DNA of 14,135 bases from Candidatus Poseidoniaceae archaeon (GTDB lineage: Archaea; Thermoplasmatota; Poseidoniia; Poseidoniales; Poseidoniaceae). A program made the position numbers and the translations under genes. The stretch lies in contig DUJC01000082.1 of NCBI GenBank assembly GCA_013330015.1, positions 7,406-21,540 on the forward strand, given 5' to 3'. Position 1 is the stretch's first letter, and each line of letters starts with the position of its first letter. The notes beneath the pieces were generated by a model. The model made no database searches. It was not told the DNA's origin and saw nothing but the letters and a program-made list of their open reading frames with translations. Shown one piece after another: positions 6,449 to 12,213 of the stretch.

Positions 6449-7063
6449 TTATTCTGATTCGAAAGCATCGACAACTTCCAGAAGTTCGAGATCTTCTCCA
6501 GCAAGGCTGTCTGCCGAATCTTCGATTGGTTCCGTGTAGGTTTTCACTTCATCGAATGGGTTAACACCCTCATCGATCATGCATAGAAGACGCCATCGAG
6601 GAGCCCAGGACAGGTGCACGTATGCAGGACCAGGAAGCAGGAGTACAAACAATGAGAGTCCACTAGGAATGTCAAGGATACTGGAATAATCCATACCGAG
6701 CAAGGCAATTCCAACGAACGGCATTGGATAGAGGATGACTCGCGGTGGCGTCATCGGCATTCGTTTCGAAAAGGAAACGAGAATCAAGGATGCAAATCCT
6801 AGCGCGAGACATGCAGCCATGAATAAAGCCGAAAAAAGCAACCAATTTGAGAGCGATTCGTTGACGTTATCGTATCGTAACATGTACGGAAAAATAAGTG
6901 CTAAACTGATGAGGAACCCATAGAACATTCCAATGTTGGCAGGATGTGAGAGCCAAAGAGGCAGTCGAGAAAAACGACGAGACAAGGAGGTTCCGAACAG
7001 AAGATCTTCATCCTCTTGTTTGAGTTGTGAAACCACTTCAGACCAGCGAACATGAGGTTCCAT
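6449..7063 (-). CDS. Uncharacterised four-helix membrane protein
   Basis: Unrecognised 204-residue protein. It has a charged N-terminal cytoplasmic-looking segment (residues 1-40, EDEDLL then SRRFSRLPLW), four hydrophobic segments at about 44-62, 74-98, 109-124 and 134-150, a conserved-looking APRWRLL just after the last segment, and an acidic C-terminal tail (165-204) ending in a run of Glu/Asp-rich residues. The RW pair after the last helix and the acidic tail suggest a membrane anchor with a cytosolic interaction tail, but no transporter or enzyme motif is visible. I use ATG 7063; a TTG at 7093 would add ten residues and lacks a good ribosome binding site. It follows the next membrane gene by about 58 nt on the same strand, with no clear TATA box between, so an operon is likely. 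Confidence 0.75.
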   Translation of the reverse strand: MEPHVRWSEVVSQLKQEDEDLLFGTSLSRRFSRLPLWLSHPANIGMFYGFLISLALIFPYMLRYDNVNESLSNWLLFSALFMAACLALGFASLILVSFSKRMPMTPPRVILYPMPFVGIALLGMDYSSILDIPSGLSLFVLLLPGPAYVHLSWAPRWRLLCMIDEGVNPFDEVKTYTEPIEDSADSLAGEDLELLEVVDAFESE

Positions 7064-7121
7064 AGTGATACCCTGCAACATTGAGGCTATCAATGCACCC
7101 GTCTATGCATCAACGAATTGG

Positions 7122-7763
7122 CTATTCTTGACGCATCAATTTCTTGGCGATTGGACCTGCAGCATCCTCGAGTTCCATCTCTTCTGGCCAGTCACGGTCA
7201 AGCAACCCATAATCCATTGATTCTCGCTTTCGGGCATCCTCAATCTCATCTTCGACTTCATTGTGCGCATCTCGCAAAGCAAGAGATTGATTCAGTAAGG
7301 CCATTGTTCTTCGAAGACGAGCACCTATGGTTTTCTCTTCCGTAAAATAGCCGAAGATGGTGTAATCTTCATCCAACGCCACGAGGTTGAACCCTGAGAG
7401 TAAATCGTCCTCAATCAGCCTGTATCGGTTTTCACCGGCCTCAACCCACCGGCCATCTTGGAGACGAATCATGACTTCTGCTTGTTTGATGGAATCCAGT
7501 TCCATCATCGGATGCGAGGGGCTGACTGCGAATGGAATCCGTTGCCAATGCTGCCACTCGCTCCAACCTAAAACGAAAATAACAACAAACACTCCAAGCA
7601 AGATGAGACTGAGGAAGGAGATTCCGACAACGACGATGCCAATGAGAGGTAAGAGAAGGAAGAGGCAAAATCGAACAAAGATTTGCCGTGTGTGTTCCTG
7701 CGCTTTCGGTGTTTGTGAAAAGACAATGAAGTGATCTGGGAGGCCCTCTTCAAACGTCATCAT
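7122..7763 (-). CDS. Uncharacterised membrane protein with helical hairpin and cytoplasmic C-terminal domain
   Basis: Unrecognised protein of about 213 residues. A short N-terminal strand (DHFIVFSQTPK) is followed by two adjoining membrane helices at about 29-50 and 51-67, then a soluble domain (70-160; AEVMIRLQDGRWVEAGENRYRL, TIFGYFTEEKTIGARLRR) and a charged helical tail rich in Glu/Asp/Arg that ends KKLMRQE. The helical hairpin followed by a soluble domain recalls small bacterial-type PH or DUF2244-like membrane proteins in topology only. The start is ambiguous: GTG 7769 followed by ATG at 7766, 7763 and 7760. The AAGGAG (complement of 7771-7776) favours 7763 or 7760 by spacing (about 7 and 10 nt). 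The gene abuts or overlaps the DUF309 stop, so the two are probably translated from one mRNA. Confidence 0.75.
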   Translation of the reverse strand: MMTFEEGLPDHFIVFSQTPKAQEHTRQIFVRFCLFLLLPLIGIVVVGISFLSLILLGVFVVIFVLGWSEWQHWQRIPFAVSPSHPMMELDSIKQAEVMIRLQDGRWVEAGENRYRLIEDDLLSGFNLVALDEDYTIFGYFTEEKTIGARLRRTMALLNQSLALRDAHNEVEDEIEDARKRESMDYGLLDRDWPEEMELEDAAGPIAKKLMRQE

Positions 7764-7765
7764 CA

Positions 7766-8197
7766 TCACTCCTTATCAATTGTAGGAAGCCGGACGTTTT
7801 CATAGGTTTGTTGCCATTCATCAACATCGTGGAAAAACACAGAGACATTCTTGACATGTTGTGCAATATCAAAACCCCAAGCAACGTCCCATGGCTCAAG
7901 TTTCGGCGTCAATTTCGCCCATTGGTTGGTAACGCCACGCACCTTTCTTCGCTGATGGTTGTAGAGAAGTGCCGCTGTTTGAATCAATCCTTGGACAAGA
8001 AGGATTTCAGCTTGCGGGGCATGACGTGCTTTGAGAGAATTCCAAAGATCTTCCCATGCTTCATGCGCATGCCAAAATCGACCGTTATCGAAATCTTGGC
8101 GACCTCGTTCAAGCAAAACTTCTTCGTCTTCAGAAAGTGGTGATGCCTCCATGGTTGGCCGAAAGCATCGACCATTGAAATGCTTCTCATTTGGCAT
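7766..8197 (-). CDS. DUF309 family protein
   Basis: The 143-residue protein contains the DUF309 signature: RGRQDFDNGRFWHAHEAWEDLW (residues 31-52), where the His-x-His-Glu-x-x-Trp-Glu pattern (His43, His45, Glu46, Glu49) may bind a metal, followed by a helical EILLVQGLIQTAALLYNHQRRKVRG. DUF309 proteins are small helical proteins of unknown biochemical role found in archaea, bacteria and plants. Start: of GTG 8209, ATG 8197 and ATG 8152 I choose 8197, because a TATA-like TTTTATC on the minus strand is centred about 25 nt upstream, the spacing of a leaderless archaeal gene; the 22 residues before the domain then form a short tail. It is the first gene of the minus-strand cluster and divergent from the DUF835 gene. 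Confidence 0.85.
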   Translation of the reverse strand: MPNEKHFNGRCFRPTMEASPLSEDEEVLLERGRQDFDNGRFWHAHEAWEDLWNSLKARHAPQAEILLVQGLIQTAALLYNHQRRKVRGVTNQWAKLTPKLEPWDVAWGFDIAQHVKNVSVFFHDVDEWQQTYENVRLPTIDKE

Positions 8198-8214
8198 CAA
8201 GGGACACACACTTC

Positions 8215-8253: not shown

Positions 8254-8258
8254 AATTG

Positions 8259-9935
8259 GTGGATTTTATTCCCGGAGATGTGTTGGAAACGAGACGCGGT
8301 GGCGTCGATGTTCTGCGACATCTTGCTCAAGAGTTGGCGACCCTAGAGCAAAATGGATCCATTCAGATTATTCGGAACATTCCAAACGTTGGTGAGCGTG
8401 TTGGCCATCTTCTCATCTTTGATGGAACCCTCGCAGCAGCCTTCCATCGTGCCGACAAAAACCGCTTGGGCATTGAAGCGCTTCTTGAAATTGAGTCCGA
8501 TGCTTCAACGCTCGATGCAACCATGAGCCTCCATGAAATGAATGAAGCAACCTACAACAGCACACTCTCGCAGTACCCCGACGCACGATTGGTCGCTGCA
8601 GACGAAGGGGAAAAAGAGGGAGTGTGGTGGGCCTCTGTTCGCACGCCTCGGCGAAAAATCGAGCGAGCGGAACGCTTACCTGAACTCAAACCGAGCGTAT
8701 CGGTTCCAGAGGTATTGCGACGTCGAAGTGAAGCACGCTTGAGAAATCAGCATGGAACCATGCTTCAACGCGGCCAGGTATGGCTGGAACATAGCATCGA
8801 AGTCGACGATGCATTCCATCTCGCTCGACAAATGGATGAATTGAATGAACCGTTCCTCGTTCTCTCTAGGCAACCACCTCCTCACATGGAGAACTATTTC
8901 AAGAAAGGACTCGAACACTATCGTTGGTTGTCAGAAACTGAGCATGAACGTACGCTTGAGCCATCGCTTGAATCGATTCGAACAGCAGTGGATGTTTTCT
9001 TCGAGCAGCACAAAAAATGTGCTCTGTTCATGGAGGGTATTGAGTACCTCTCTGGAATCCATGGCGAACAAAGGGTCATTGAGATGATTCGTAGCATTAT
9101 CGACCAGACACGTTTGAATGGAAATGTGTTCATCCTTACCTCCAATCTCGAGGCATTCTCAACACAGCAACGAGCTCGATTGGAACGTGAGTGTTCGCAT
9201 CTGAGCAAAGAACAACTTCAATCGTGGTTGTTGGATGTCGAAATCTTAGCGGAACATCCTTACTTCCAAATGATCGATGAGGAAGAAGAAGAAGCACTTG
9301 GGAGGCATCTTGAGGAAAACACACACGACCCGATCATTGCTCCAGAGCAGACTGCTCATCAACCCACTACATTGACACCATTGCCAGTTGAACATCAATC
9401 AATGAAGGTGGATGAAGAACTTCAATCCAAAATGATGGAATGGGCCAAAGAATCTGAGGAGGAGCAAGAAGTTTTCACCGAAGAACCTGAAACAATGGAC
9501 GAACAAGTGGAACGTCTTCTCGATCGCAGGCCTCGGACACCACAGCGTATTGTTCGACGCCGAAAACACACTCCACAATTGACCAAAGGGAATACGTTGG
9601 ATGCTGCCGCAAAACATGACAAAACGCTTCCAAATCTGCAAGCGGTTGATTCAAACAAAGCAAAGCAATTTGTCCCTGTAACCTCATCGAGAGAACATGC
9701 ATTCCCACCCCCAAAACCAACACTCTCGTCGAAAGGTATCGACCAGGCAGCGGCATCGACTGCAGGGAAAAAACTCGCTCAATTCCCCCCAATCAAATCG
9801 ACGGGGCATGTACCGGTTGCCGTTTCGACACGGAAACATCAACCACCCAATACAAAGACGTCGCCACATGCTCGCGAGCATGCATCAGCAAAACAACGGT
9901 TTTCGGATGAACACGAACCGGAGGGCGGCGCATGA
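8259..9935 (+). CDS. DUF835 domain protein with long disordered C-terminal tail
   Basis: A 558-residue protein in three parts. Residues 1-115 form a globular N-terminal domain (GGVDVLRHLAQELATL, then VGHLLIFDGTLAAAFHRAD and GIEALLEIE), whose pattern of small-molecule-like strand-turn-G-x-L resembles the PATAN/DUF4388 group, though weakly. Residues about 170-315 are a DUF835 domain: FLVLSRQPPPHM, KKGLEHYRWLSETE, CALFMEGIEYLSGIHG, NVFILTSNLEAFS and RARLERECSHL match the family (LsR-x-P, WLs, dGieYL, Lere). DUF835 occurs in archaeal signalling and motility-related proteins, but its activity is unsettled. From about 325 to the end the chain is low-complexity: acidic first (DEEEEEALG), then Arg/Lys/Pro/Gln-rich and probably disordered. 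GTG 8259 is preferred over TTG 8256 for spacing from GAGGT. It overlaps the DnaA-like gene by ATGA. Confidence 0.85.
   Translation: MDFIPGDVLETRRGGVDVLRHLAQELATLEQNGSIQIIRNIPNVGERVGHLLIFDGTLAAAFHRADKNRLGIEALLEIESDASTLDATMSLHEMNEATYNSTLSQYPDARLVAADEGEKEGVWWASVRTPRRKIERAERLPELKPSVSVPEVLRRRSEARLRNQHGTMLQRGQVWLEHSIEVDDAFHLARQMDELNEPFLVLSRQPPPHMENYFKKGLEHYRWLSETEHERTLEPSLESIRTAVDVFFEQHKKCALFMEGIEYLSGIHGEQRVIEMIRSIIDQTRLNGNVFILTSNLEAFSTQQRARLERECSHLSKEQLQSWLLDVEILAEHPYFQMIDEEEEEALGRHLEENTHDPIIAPEQTAHQPTTLTPLPVEHQSMKVDEELQSKMMEWAKESEEEQEVFTEEPETMDEQVERLLDRRPRTPQRIVRRRKHTPQLTKGNTLDAAAKHDKTLPNLQAVDSNKAKQFVPVTSSREHAFPPPKPTLSSKGIDQAAASTAGKKLAQFPPIKSTGHVPVAVSTRKHQPPNTKTSPHAREHASAKQRFSDEHEPEGGA
9920..9925 (+). 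promoter_or_regulatory. Ribosome binding site GGAGGG of the DnaA-like gene
   Basis: GGAGGG lies inside the last codons of the DUF835 gene, six bases before the ATG at 9932. This strong site fixes the start of the DnaA-like gene and shows that translation is coupled to the gene before it. Confidence 0.65.
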
Positions 9936-11758
9936 GCATTGAGAAAACCAATCGATTGCGCATTGCATTGCAAAAGGCAAAAGCAGGTCTTGAACTGCAG
10001 GATGAGCAAAACAAAGAGAATCCATCCAAACTTGGACGACTTCTGAACAAACCAACTTCTCTGTCATCAGAACGCCGTCTCGTTCCGTCCCAACCAATTC
10101 ATGAACGACCACTGATGTCTGCCATCAGCAAAGAAGTGCTTGGAGAGGATATCGGATATCAGCCTACGATTGATCTGGAGAATTCCCACCCAGTTTCAAG
10201 GATGAAGAATTTGCGTGAACGGAGTTTCGACGAATCAATCCCTGAGGGAAGTTTGGGCGACAAAATTGGATTCTCATCAATTGGACAACCACTTTGGTCA
10301 TCGATTCTCGATGAGCAACGCAACATGCCATCCAACATGATTCCCACAACGATGTCTAGGCCAAAACACGGTGAACGGTTGCATCATTCAACCACGTTGT
10401 CCAGCCAGACACACTGGCCTCAACGGTTGGAATTAAGACAACGCAAGACCTTCAAGCAGTGGAAGGTGACTCCAGAAAACGAACAAGCCACAAGTGTCTG
10501 TGAATCGATCATCGACCATTTGGGAGAGCGACATAATCCACATCTTATCATAGGAGCAAATGAAGTTGGAAAAAGTCACTTGCTCAATGCAACTGGACAA
10601 AGCGTTTTGCGGTATTTCGATGGTGATGTTCGAATTATTCGTGCTACGGAACTTGTTGGTGCTAGCCAATTGCCAAATGATTGGCAAGATGCAATTGCGA
10701 CGACGGTGTTGCTGTTGATTGACGATGTTCACGTTATTGCTGCACATGAAGGCCATGCACAAACTGTTGGCCATCTCGTTGACCATGCGCTGAATCTCGG
10801 CGTCCACATCCTCTGCACCTCAGGAACCCACCCTCAAGAATGGCCGTCATCACGTCTGTGGGGATTATTGCGCAATGCATCAGCATCGACAGTGCAACCA
10901 GCTTCAGAAGCAAGTTTGGTCATGCACATCAAGCATCAAACTTCGTTGCTCGGCATGCTCCTCGAGGATGCACACATCATGCAGGTTCTCAACCATTCAG
11001 GTCAATCATGGAGAGGCGTTGAAGCAGCCATTTCCATGCTGAAAGATGCACATGAGCGAGGAGAAAACATCGTCGATCCAGAGGATGTCATCACACTTCT
11101 AACGGGACGTTCATTGCAGCCCGCCATGAGAAGCGATTCAATTCTAGAACCATCCATCTCATTAGCTTCAGACATTCTCAAACGAGCAACCGATGTCGTC
11201 TACTCAGAAGTCGATGCAGGTGGTATCGAACTTCATGCAACTACTCTCGATATCAAAGAGGACGATTGGGAACCAACCGAAGTATCTGCTGAAGATATTT
11301 CCAGTGCAAACGATTTGCTCGAAATGCACCTGCGCACGACCCTCGAAGAATTGACGCCAGAAGCACCAACCGTCCTCGATGTAGATTCACGCGACCAGCA
11401 CCTTACACATCAATTGGGAACCGTCAGTGGCCAGGACATTGAACGCACAGCAGACGTACTCGCAGGAATTGATGCGTCTATCGATGAAGCCCTTGCAGAG
11501 CGTGAACGATTAATGGTTCGAGACGATCTTCGTCTCCGGCATCTAGAGTTCAAAATGGAGGAACTTCTCGAACGAACGGCTCATGCAGACGCCAACGAAC
11601 TCATCGATATCGTGGATGAATTGAGAGTCATTGAACACGAACTCGGCCTAGTGAGTGAAGATGCAATGGAAGCCTTCGAAATGGAGGATGAAGAAATCAG
11701 AATCGCCCACTTGTCAACGATTCGACCAACAACTCGACTGCTGGGTGAAGAGGAATGA
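9932..11758 (+). CDS. DnaA/Hda-like AAA+ ATPase lacking the DnaA DNA-binding domain
   Basis: A 608-residue protein. Residues 1-180 look mostly disordered and carry two copies of a short motif (LGEDIGY at 70, LGDKIGF at 108). At about 185-390 is an AAA+ module with the DnaA/Hda layout: TFKQWKVTPENEQA (compare TFDNFVVGPSNQLA), Walker A GANEVGKSH with Lys214, Walker B VLLLIDDVH with Asp264/Asp265, sensor I HILCTSGTHPQEW near 297, and SWRGVEAAISML with a sensor-II-position Arg361. The C-terminal 220 residues are acidic and helical, with a coiled coil near 520-575; no DnaA domain IV helix-turn-helix signature is visible, so double-stranded origin binding as in bacterial DnaA is unlikely. Archaea initiate replication with Orc1/Cdc6, so another regulatory or loading role is more likely. 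It overlaps both neighbours by ATGA. Fold is confident; function is unknown. Confidence 0.83.
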   Translation: MSIEKTNRLRIALQKAKAGLELQDEQNKENPSKLGRLLNKPTSLSSERRLVPSQPIHERPLMSAISKEVLGEDIGYQPTIDLENSHPVSRMKNLRERSFDESIPEGSLGDKIGFSSIGQPLWSSILDEQRNMPSNMIPTTMSRPKHGERLHHSTTLSSQTHWPQRLELRQRKTFKQWKVTPENEQATSVCESIIDHLGERHNPHLIIGANEVGKSHLLNATGQSVLRYFDGDVRIIRATELVGASQLPNDWQDAIATTVLLLIDDVHVIAAHEGHAQTVGHLVDHALNLGVHILCTSGTHPQEWPSSRLWGLLRNASASTVQPASEASLVMHIKHQTSLLGMLLEDAHIMQVLNHSGQSWRGVEAAISMLKDAHERGENIVDPEDVITLLTGRSLQPAMRSDSILEPSISLASDILKRATDVVYSEVDAGGIELHATTLDIKEDDWEPTEVSAEDISSANDLLEMHLRTTLEELTPEAPTVLDVDSRDQHLTHQLGTVSGQDIERTADVLAGIDASIDEALAERERLMVRDDLRLRHLEFKMEELLERTAHADANELIDIVDELRVIEHELGLVSEDAMEAFEMEDEEIRIAHLSTIRPTTRLLGEEE

Positions 11759-12213
11759 GGGGTGCTTGGTGGGCCGACGGGGTTCGCTTTTCCTGCCAAC
11801 CTGATTGTGGACGCTGTTGCGATGAACCAGGTGGTATTGTCTACCTGTCCCGTGCTGACGCACAACGTCTCGCAGAACATGCAGGATTAACTGTGAAAGA
11901 ATTTCTGAGAAGGGATTGTACAACGACATTGGATGGTCGTTATGTTCTTCGCTCAAATCAATCCGATGGTATTTGCATCTACCTCGACGAAAAAAAGCAA
12001 TGCGGCATCTATCAAGTACGTCCACAGCAGTGCAAAGCCTTTCCATGGTGGGCAGAAAATCTGCGCAGCAAGCGCTCATGGAAACAAGTTAAGGCAACAT
12101 GTCCGGGGCTGACTTCAGAGGATGCGATTCTCATTAGTGGCGATGAGATTCGTTTGCATGTCCATGCTGATCGACAATCGACCCATGGTTTTCGCGTGTG
12201 GCAAGATTCGTGA
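11755..12213 (+). CDS. YkgJ-type CxxxCxxCC metal-binding protein
   Basis: A 152-residue cytosolic protein of the YkgJ zinc- or iron-chelating family (PF03692-like). Near the N-terminus is the cluster C14-x3-C18-x2-C21-C22 followed by GGIVYLS, then CIYLDEKKQCGIYQVRPQQCKAFPW with Cys74, Cys83 and Cys93, and the final CPGL with Cys116. These eight cysteines match the family's metal site; FWW-like aromatic residues (PWWAEN) are also typical. The biochemical role of the family is not settled, and an Fe-S cluster cannot be excluded. It overlaps the stop of the DnaA-like gene by ATGA and is the third and last gene of the operon starting at 8259. A small hairpin follows the stop. Confidence 0.88.
   Translation: MRGAWWADGVRFSCQPDCGRCCDEPGGIVYLSRADAQRLAEHAGLTVKEFLRRDCTTTLDGRYVLRSNQSDGICIYLDEKKQCGIYQVRPQQCKAFPWWAENLRSKRSWKQVKATCPGLTSEDAILISGDEIRLHVHADRQSTHGFRVWQDS

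Follow-up and report, generated by a model that had tools for sequence, protein, structure and literature searches.

A DnaA-clade AAA+ protein and its DUF835 neighbour as a putative two-gene signalling module in Poseidoniales archaea

In the genome of a Candidatus Poseidoniaceae archaeon (assembly GCA_013330015.1), a stretch of 14,135 nucleotides on contig DUJC01000082.1 (positions 7,406 to 21,540 of the forward strand; hereafter the window) harbours two adjacent genes that are the subject of the present study. The upstream gene codes for a protein with a DUF835 domain, the downstream gene for a DnaA-like AAA+ protein, and the stop codon of the former overlaps the ATG of the latter by four bases (9932–9935; Table 1). 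Initiator ATPases are divided between DnaA in bacteria and Orc1/Cdc6 in archaea, as outlined in passages of PMC11880632, and archaea of the Poseidoniales type are called the most abundant archaeal group in ocean surface waters in the abstract of PMC6461757. With moderate confidence, we favour reading the gene pair as a two-gene DUF835 (degenerate KaiC-like) signalling module, the ATPase arm of which would descend from DnaA.

Conservation of the DnaA-like open reading frame (ORF) in 163 homologous proteins (protein search, E≤0.001) rules out a chance ORF. That the ORF is real and its core a DnaA-clade AAA+ domain is confirmed by sequence comparison and structure prediction, DnaA being nearest to the core by sequence, profile and predicted fold. 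PF00308 (Bac_DnaA) is the top Pfam match (E 7e-12, residues 168–303) and exceeds the family cut-off, TIGR00362 (DnaA) is the best NCBIfam match (E 1.3e-15, residues 155–371), and all five matches at E≤1 in a search of PDB sequences are DnaA. The equivalog cut-offs are not reached, neither that of TIGR00362 (57.4 vs 343.9 bits) nor that of TIGR03420 for Hda (E 2.3e-12; 46.9 vs 194.8 bits). Bac_DnaA_C, i.e., domain IV with its helix-turn-helix, was not matched in the protein by Pfam scan at E≤1. These results bear out a preliminary description, made from the sequence alone, that had claimed a DnaA/Hda-like AAA+ core without the DnaA DNA-binding domain. Neither of the two findings it had named beforehand as speaking against this claim was made: the best profile is that of DnaA and not of STAND/NACHT, and no helix-turn-helix of DnaA domain IV was matched at the C-terminus. 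Other identities were rejected: STAND/NACHT is not represented among the five Pfam matches at E≤1, and the ORF is absent from the four TIGR02928 (Orc1/Cdc6) matches of its own genome. An Orc1 chain is missing from the best 50 listed fold matches of the core, a result carrying no weight either way. The IstB profile reached 25 bits (cut-off 200), less than DnaA; no evidence was gained for the earlier suggestion of a loader, and a role in helicase loading or as a transposition helper (DnaC/DnaI/IstB type) is scarcely credible.

Table 1. Features of the DUF835/DnaA-like gene pair and its downstream neighbour (positions within the window)
Feature	Position	Strand	Evidence
Partner gene: N-terminal domain + DUF835 (KaiC-like, no P-loop), 559 amino acids	8256..9935	+	PF05763; fold; adjacency
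Partner N-terminal domain, residues 1–113, homologous to that of DnaA-DUF835 fusions	8256..8594	+	hhalign
Partner DUF835 domain, about residues 168–317	8757..9206	+	Pfam; profile alignment
DnaA-like AAA+ protein, 608 amino acids	9932..11758	+	ORF call; PF00308; TIGR00362; matched in 120/193 Poseidoniales genomes
N-terminal part, residues 1–165, mostly low-confidence/disordered in model	9932..10426	+	Low pLDDT (predicted local distance difference test); invariant columns
DnaA-clade AAA+ core, residues 166–395 (about)	10427..11116	+	Pfam, NCBIfam, PDB sequence search, profile alignment, predicted fold
Walker A GANEVGKS, residues 208–215 (K214)	10553..10576	+	Alignment; motif search
Walker B LLLIDD, residues 260–265	10709..10726	+	Translation; alignment
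Sensor II Arg361	11012..11014	+	≥90% conserved in 21 sequences; aligned with E. coli DnaA R334
Acidic helical hairpin, C-terminal, residues 500–574	11429..11653	+	pLDDT 74–87 for 501–570; conserved columns, charge
PF03692 (CxxCxxCC) gene, downstream, 4-nt overlap with DnaA-like gene	11755..12213	+	Pfam; locus comparison

The partner protein encoded upstream matches PF05763 (DUF835) with E 4.9e-14. Its structural model has a mean pLDDT of 60.6, with blocks of the DUF835 domain mostly at 82–93 and those of the N-terminal domain at 34–59. KaiC (1.2e-4) and FlaH (1.7e-4) headed the fold search, followed by a Vps4 chain (poor superposition) and RecA (2.3e-4), the TM-scores to these four being modest (at most 0.47 by target length). 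A motif search for the P-loop GxxxxGK[ST] found none in the protein, and its DUF835 domain is KaiC/RecA-like in predicted fold, without a P-loop. Passages of PMC5847659 describe DUF835 as an inactivated KaiC-like (iKaiC) output domain of archaeal response regulators. The N-terminal domain obtained no firm Pfam name (best DUF2226 with E 8.4e-4 in one of eight pieces, under the cut-off, and 0.088 in another piece); due to this weak match and the low model confidence its fold is left unnamed. The start of the gene at 8256 is unsure, ORFs of several relatives reaching about 28–36 residues further upstream; the upstream extension of the DUF835 match in the window's genome crosses an in-frame stop.

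The arrangement of the two genes is conserved. In all eight loci read, representing both Poseidoniales families, the DUF835 gene lies upstream of the DnaA-like gene on the same strand, with the four-nucleotide overlap in seven of them. Using the respective alignments as queries, each of the two genes was matched in 120 of 193 Poseidoniales genomes; 118 genomes possess both and 71 neither, the DnaA-like gene standing alone in two (G348, G321) and a DUF835 match in two others (G152, G039). Some DUF835 matches are weak and may represent another DUF835 protein (e.g., in G018, G039 and G284). Both genes have a listed match in 117 genomes. In 111 of these, DUF835 precedes the DnaA-like gene on the same strand and the matched parts are within 1.5 kb; in the remaining six the two matches lie on different contigs.

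Outside the order Poseidoniales, DnaA-type AAA+ and DUF835 domains also occur in a single chain. A search of the phylum with PF00308 yielded matches in 104 of 292 Thermoplasmatota genomes, with scores of at least 79 bits in 25 genomes outside Poseidoniales vs at most 69 bits within. Because the control also exceeded the cut-off in three archaea (M. jannaschii, H. volcanii, M. acetivorans), weak matches were not trusted, and outside Poseidoniales only those of at least 79 bits were used. Weak matches in one family (f30; L190–L193) at first resembled additional DnaA proteins; the one tested (L191) is an Orc1/Cdc6 relative (47.8% identical). In a Pfam scan of ten chosen strong DnaA-type proteins, eight carry DUF835 C-terminal to the AAA+ domain. 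With the fusion alignment as query, both domains were found in one open frame in at least 12 of the 292 genomes (G198, G285, G271, G066, G273, G276, G233, G262, G045, G057, G247, G301), a lower bound as at most three candidates were scored per genome; the first ten of these also have the N-terminal domain, which the fusions L066 and L067 lack. Named cases are L073 from a Methanomassiliicoccales archaeon and L074 from a Thermoplasmata archaeon, and several fusions contain a zinc-ribbon-like CxxC stretch N-terminal to AAA+.

All three domains can be traced between the two arrangements. Profile comparison of the window family with the fusions aligned the DUF835 domains (99.4%, E 6.6e-22) and the DnaA-like cores (205 columns, 99.6%, E 6.2e-25), and hhalign related the N-terminal domain of the partner to that of the fusions (97.8%, score 75.5), compared to scores of 10.4–11.4 for three unrelated domain pairs and at most 14.8 for 30 column shuffles. 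Since all three pieces align to the fusions, the two adjacent genes of the window together supply, by homology, the full set of three fusion domains. Only two of 20 further DUF835 loci, L170 and L171, carry a recognisable N-terminal domain. A guess of the preliminary description, that the DnaA-like protein is a partner of the DUF835 protein, thus finds support in fusion, gene order and co-occurrence.

Variants of this architecture were observed as well. L170 and L171 (family f30, which also has a fusion) code for proteins of about 356 amino acids with the N-terminal domain and DUF835 and without the DnaA core, the AAA+ region having possibly been lost. In L213 (family f33), a DnaA-type ORF of 576 amino acids is followed 78 bases on by a DUF835 ORF of 271 amino acids on the same strand; the N-terminal domain was not found in this split pair. 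The AAA+ core of the former (L213, 2396–4123, minus strand) ends near the C-terminus, yet the protein scores 344.4 bits against the TIGR00362 cut-off of 343.9, so that automatic naming as initiator DnaA is likely and passing this cut-off is no proof of an initiator. Other DnaA-type AAA+ domains reside in open frames of 1213–1419 amino acids (L043, L044, L045; double zinc ribbon in L043 and L044) or follow an FN3-like N-terminus (L046, L049), the next gene in L046 coding for a KaiC-domain protein.

Catalytic motifs of the core were compared in an alignment of 13 Poseidoniales, 12 fusion, 11 other archaeal and 20 bacterial DnaA proteins together with E. coli Hda and DnaC. Residues singled out in the preliminary description were correctly placed, i.e., K214 in Walker A, D264-D265, TSG with S297, and R361 in SWRGVEAAI; the core is of DnaA type, but its box VII arginine finger has been lost, along with part of the initiator-specific motif. 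The second Walker B aspartate is present in all 13 Poseidoniales proteins; the first is replaced by Glu in L025 and kept in the other 12. The Walker A lysine is found in 11 (Arg in P0103 and P0114) and arginine at the sensor II position in eight. ATP binding by the core is likely. The exchange of the Walker A lysine for arginine is seen in P0103, P0114 and P0115, for which reason ATP use may differ in these three. In all 13 Poseidoniales proteins, L, V, I or A takes the place of the arginine finger (R285 in E. coli). In contrast, 9 of the 12 fusions retain it, as do all 11 other archaeal and all 20 bacterial proteins and E. coli Hda, the sole Hda aligned. The stretch from Walker A to Walker B spans 49–51 residues in Poseidoniales vs 55–57 in the 20 bacterial DnaA proteins and 46 in Hda, and 56–57 residues in 10 of the 12 fusions. 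The residue aligned with V211 is deleted in all 13 Poseidoniales proteins, the core of which does not contain the full-length initiator-specific motif before Walker B. In DnaA, the arginine finger and the initiator-specific motif serve ATP-dependent filament formation and single-strand binding; with the former and part of the latter lost, a DnaA-like filament on DNA is unlikely to be formed by the Poseidoniales protein.

The core is flanked by two long extensions. Model confidence is low over the first ~160 residues (blocks of ten residues mostly at pLDDT <60), in agreement with the disordered N-terminal part described earlier; this part nevertheless holds conserved short motifs (e.g., P120/W122/R130), and 25 of its 165 columns are at least 90% identical among 54 sequences. 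For the C-terminal part (residues 396–608), the description as acidic stood (26% D+E, net charge −37), and that as helical held in part only, the model containing helices at 453–473, 500–551 and 554–574. By the same measure its conservation is on a par with that of the core (44 of 213 vs 42 of 230 columns). The protein might be mainly structural, i.e., a nucleotide-gated scaffold or positioning protein in which AAA+ is the assembly device and the acidic C-terminal helices are the working part; the zinc-ribbon or FN3-like parts of other archaeal DnaA-type proteins fit such a role, which would leave the N-terminal and DUF835 domains of the partner unexplained and which we regard as quite unlikely.

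Among 40 genomes surveyed, the gene was matched in 27, comprising all 24 of the genus (own genome included) and 3 of 16 of the sister family. Where named, the source organisms of homologues are Poseidoniaceae, Poseidoniales or Euryarchaeota (best 120 of the 163), and some of these 120 are automatically named 'DnaA/Hda family protein' or 'chromosomal replication initiation ATPase DnaA'. A wider contig scan returned at least 78 bacterial-titled loci among the 80 listed. Every one of the 40 genomes, the window's own among them, has Orc1/Cdc6 above the cut-off; the own genome has two Orc1/Cdc6 genes over the TIGR02928 cut-off, on other contigs (C24 and C147) than the window (C19). DnaA domain IV (PF08299) was found in none of the 40 genomes, own included; the control was positive in 10 of 14, all ten bacterial. 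The archaeal origin assumed at the outset is hence upheld by the named homologues and by Orc1/Cdc6. The proposed survey of related genomes turned up the gene across much of the order with a recurrent DUF835 neighbour; its kinship to further DnaA-type proteins of Thermoplasmatota likewise contradicts the impression of an oddity. In genera g2, g3, g4, g6 and g8 of family f2, the genomes listed have neither gene and are small (1.2–1.6 Mb).

With domain IV, the arginine finger and part of the initiator-specific motif missing and Orc1/Cdc6 present, replication initiation by the DnaA-like protein is unlikely. A rival reading is a regulator akin to Hda, i.e., a DnaA-type AAA+ protein without DNA-binding domain that would contact Orc1/Cdc6, MCM or PCNA and turn initiation down or up. 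The one Hda aligned keeps the arginine finger that the 13 Poseidoniales proteins have lost, and the target of Hda, DnaA with domain IV, was not found in any of the 40 genomes. Moreover, Orc1 was not matched in any of 23 loci around the family, the conserved partner being instead the DUF835 protein. We thus consider such a regulator unlikely.

Six fusion loci (L073, L199, L200, L209, L210, L211) share the order gyrA-gyrB-thiC-fusion, the first three genes being named by NCBIfam matches; in E. coli, gyrB, recF, dnaN and dnaA follow one another directly. In L203 and L208 (families f8 and f18), a radB-like gene with a Rad51 domain follows the fusion gene. In L196 (11776–14001), the profile matches of gyrA fall into two segments and include an intein-containing GyrA family; an intein in this archaeal gyrA is likely by this pattern. 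The vicinity of gyrase genes in six loci, along with the arginine finger in most fusions and a full Walker A-to-B length in 10 of 12, could be taken to indicate a second initiator, the pair binding origins via the partner or via its own tails. Against it stand the lack of domain IV in the 40 genomes, the loss of the arginine finger and of the V211 position in Poseidoniales, the universal presence of Orc1/Cdc6 in the same 40 genomes and the absence of both genes from 71 of the 193 Poseidoniales genomes, which render it very improbable. In a tentative and rather doubtful scenario, a Thermoplasmatota ancestor would have captured bacterial dnaA, perhaps along with gyrase, as the gene order of the six loci and the proximity of dnaA to gyrB in E. 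coli might hint. After removal of the part that binds DNA, the ATPase would have been built into a DUF835/KaiC-like sensor to yield an archaeal signalling switch reporting DNA topology or replication, which marine Poseidoniales would later have divided between two overlapping genes, with loss of the arginine finger.

Phylogenetic trees place the Poseidoniales cores close to a part of the fusions. A first AAA+ tree of 60 rows including Hda, IstB and DnaC was set aside, as long branches dominated and DnaC joined the Poseidoniales branch. In trees rebuilt without Hda, IstB and DnaC (4 rows), and then also without L064, L066 and L067, the 13 Poseidoniales cores fall inside fusion group A, which comprises 8 of the 12 fusions (support 98/95 and 98/98, respectively); the other four fusions (group B) cluster with other archaeal DnaA-type proteins. 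Judged from domain homology, the gene pair is most simply explained by fission of a fusion; the trees are no proof of this, and those of DUF835, being mixed, do not confirm it. In a second DUF835 tree, a clade with L170/L171 and without group B was not rejected (p 0.295), for a set that was defined after the first DUF835 result and left out group B, L066, L067 and two other Poseidoniales DUF835 rows (L186, L187). Both DUF835 trees omit the cut copy L001.

Several observations weigh against the proposed module and its derivation from a fusion. The 12 fusions fall into more than one group, the fusion label requiring four changes on each AAA+ tree, and fusion or fission may thus have occurred repeatedly. 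Approximately unbiased (AU) tests did not reject a grouping of the Poseidoniales AAA+ domains with all bacterial DnaA (p 0.263) or with the other archaeal group (p 0.445), nor a joint grouping of all archaeal AAA+ rows (p 0.546). In the first DUF835 tree, clades of Poseidoniales with fusion group A (p 0.0166) and with groups A and B (p 0.0014) were rejected, and the nearest relative of the partner is a second Poseidoniales DUF835 protein. DUF835 domains are widespread in Thermoplasmatota, such that finding one is little proof by itself. Of the neighbours in the window, those scanned (Suf genes, citrate synthase, CTP-dependent riboflavin kinase) provide no signalling context; complex, ATPase activity and signal input are predictions.

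The module reading nonetheless remains the one we prefer. We infer the biochemical role of the DnaA-like protein as that of the ATPase subunit of a two-protein module, the two Poseidoniales proteins presumably forming one complex. This two-gene state would most likely have arisen by fission of a DnaA-DUF835 fusion. The N-terminal domain of the partner may sense a signal and the DUF835 domain may transmit it to the DnaA-type subunit, which would serve as ATP-dependent switch or scaffold, and the motifs of the disordered N-terminal part together with the acidic C-terminal helices could dock further partners. The main rivals of this reading are the Hda-like replication regulator and the nucleotide-gated scaffold. 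The gene of a reshaped DnaA relative adjoins that of a KaiC-like partner, to which such an ATPase is fused in some related archaea; this points to the conversion of a bacterial replication ATPase into a component of a signalling module in archaea. If true, a DnaA-clade AAA+ protein conserved in abundant marine archaea, with KaiC-like fusions in relatives, would represent a clear case of re-use of an initiator ATPase; it also offers a concrete partner pair and a handle on the function of DUF835 domains.

Next to the pair, the PF03692 gene was found near it in 8 of 8 loci read, and on the same strand in just six, for which reason it probably does not belong to the module. Upstream, and divergent from the DUF835 gene, three genes (6449–7093, 7122–7769 and a DUF309 gene at 7766–8209) occupy the minus strand between 6449 and 8209; this three-gene order was matched in 6 of 8 Poseidoniales loci, DUF309 being unmatched in L031 and L033.

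The AAA+ type of DnaA and the automatic DnaA/Hda names are already known; as annotations of archaeal genes, these names should not be taken literally. The archaeal family with its DUF835 pairing and fusion appears to be new: among the papers listed in searches of the open-access literature, none dealt by title or abstract with an archaeal DnaA-type family or a DnaA-DUF835 fusion, most subscription papers lying beyond the search, and the accessible part of PMC7203096 holds no DnaA passage. With bacterial DnaA, the Poseidoniales protein shares the AAA+ fold, the TF..W/F motif of the N-linker, Walker A/B and the sensor II arginine; it differs by the missing domain IV, the lost arginine finger, the shortened initiator-specific motif and a host possessing Orc1/Cdc6. 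Hda, the partner of which is the sliding clamp, likewise consists of a DnaA-type AAA+ domain without domain IV and has a short Walker A-to-B stretch, whereas the Poseidoniales protein has long N- and C-terminal parts, a lost arginine finger and a DUF835 neighbour. The iKaiC/DUF835 output proteins of PMC5847659 share with the partner the DUF835 domain and the KaiC-like fold, but the fusions of DUF835 listed in the passages concerned are those with REC and PAS, and DnaA has no occurrence in the main text. Also close are the DnaA-DUF835 fusions (L052, L054, L060, L061, L064, L073 and others), which have homologous AAA+ core, N-terminal and DUF835 domains and differ in being a single chain, in the CxxC stretch of several members and in an arginine finger intact in 9 of 12. 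We define the 'DnaA-DUF835 module of Thermoplasmatota' here as a DnaA-type AAA+ domain joined or adjacent to a protein with the N-terminal domain and DUF835, and the gene pair of the window belongs to it by adjacency and domain homology.

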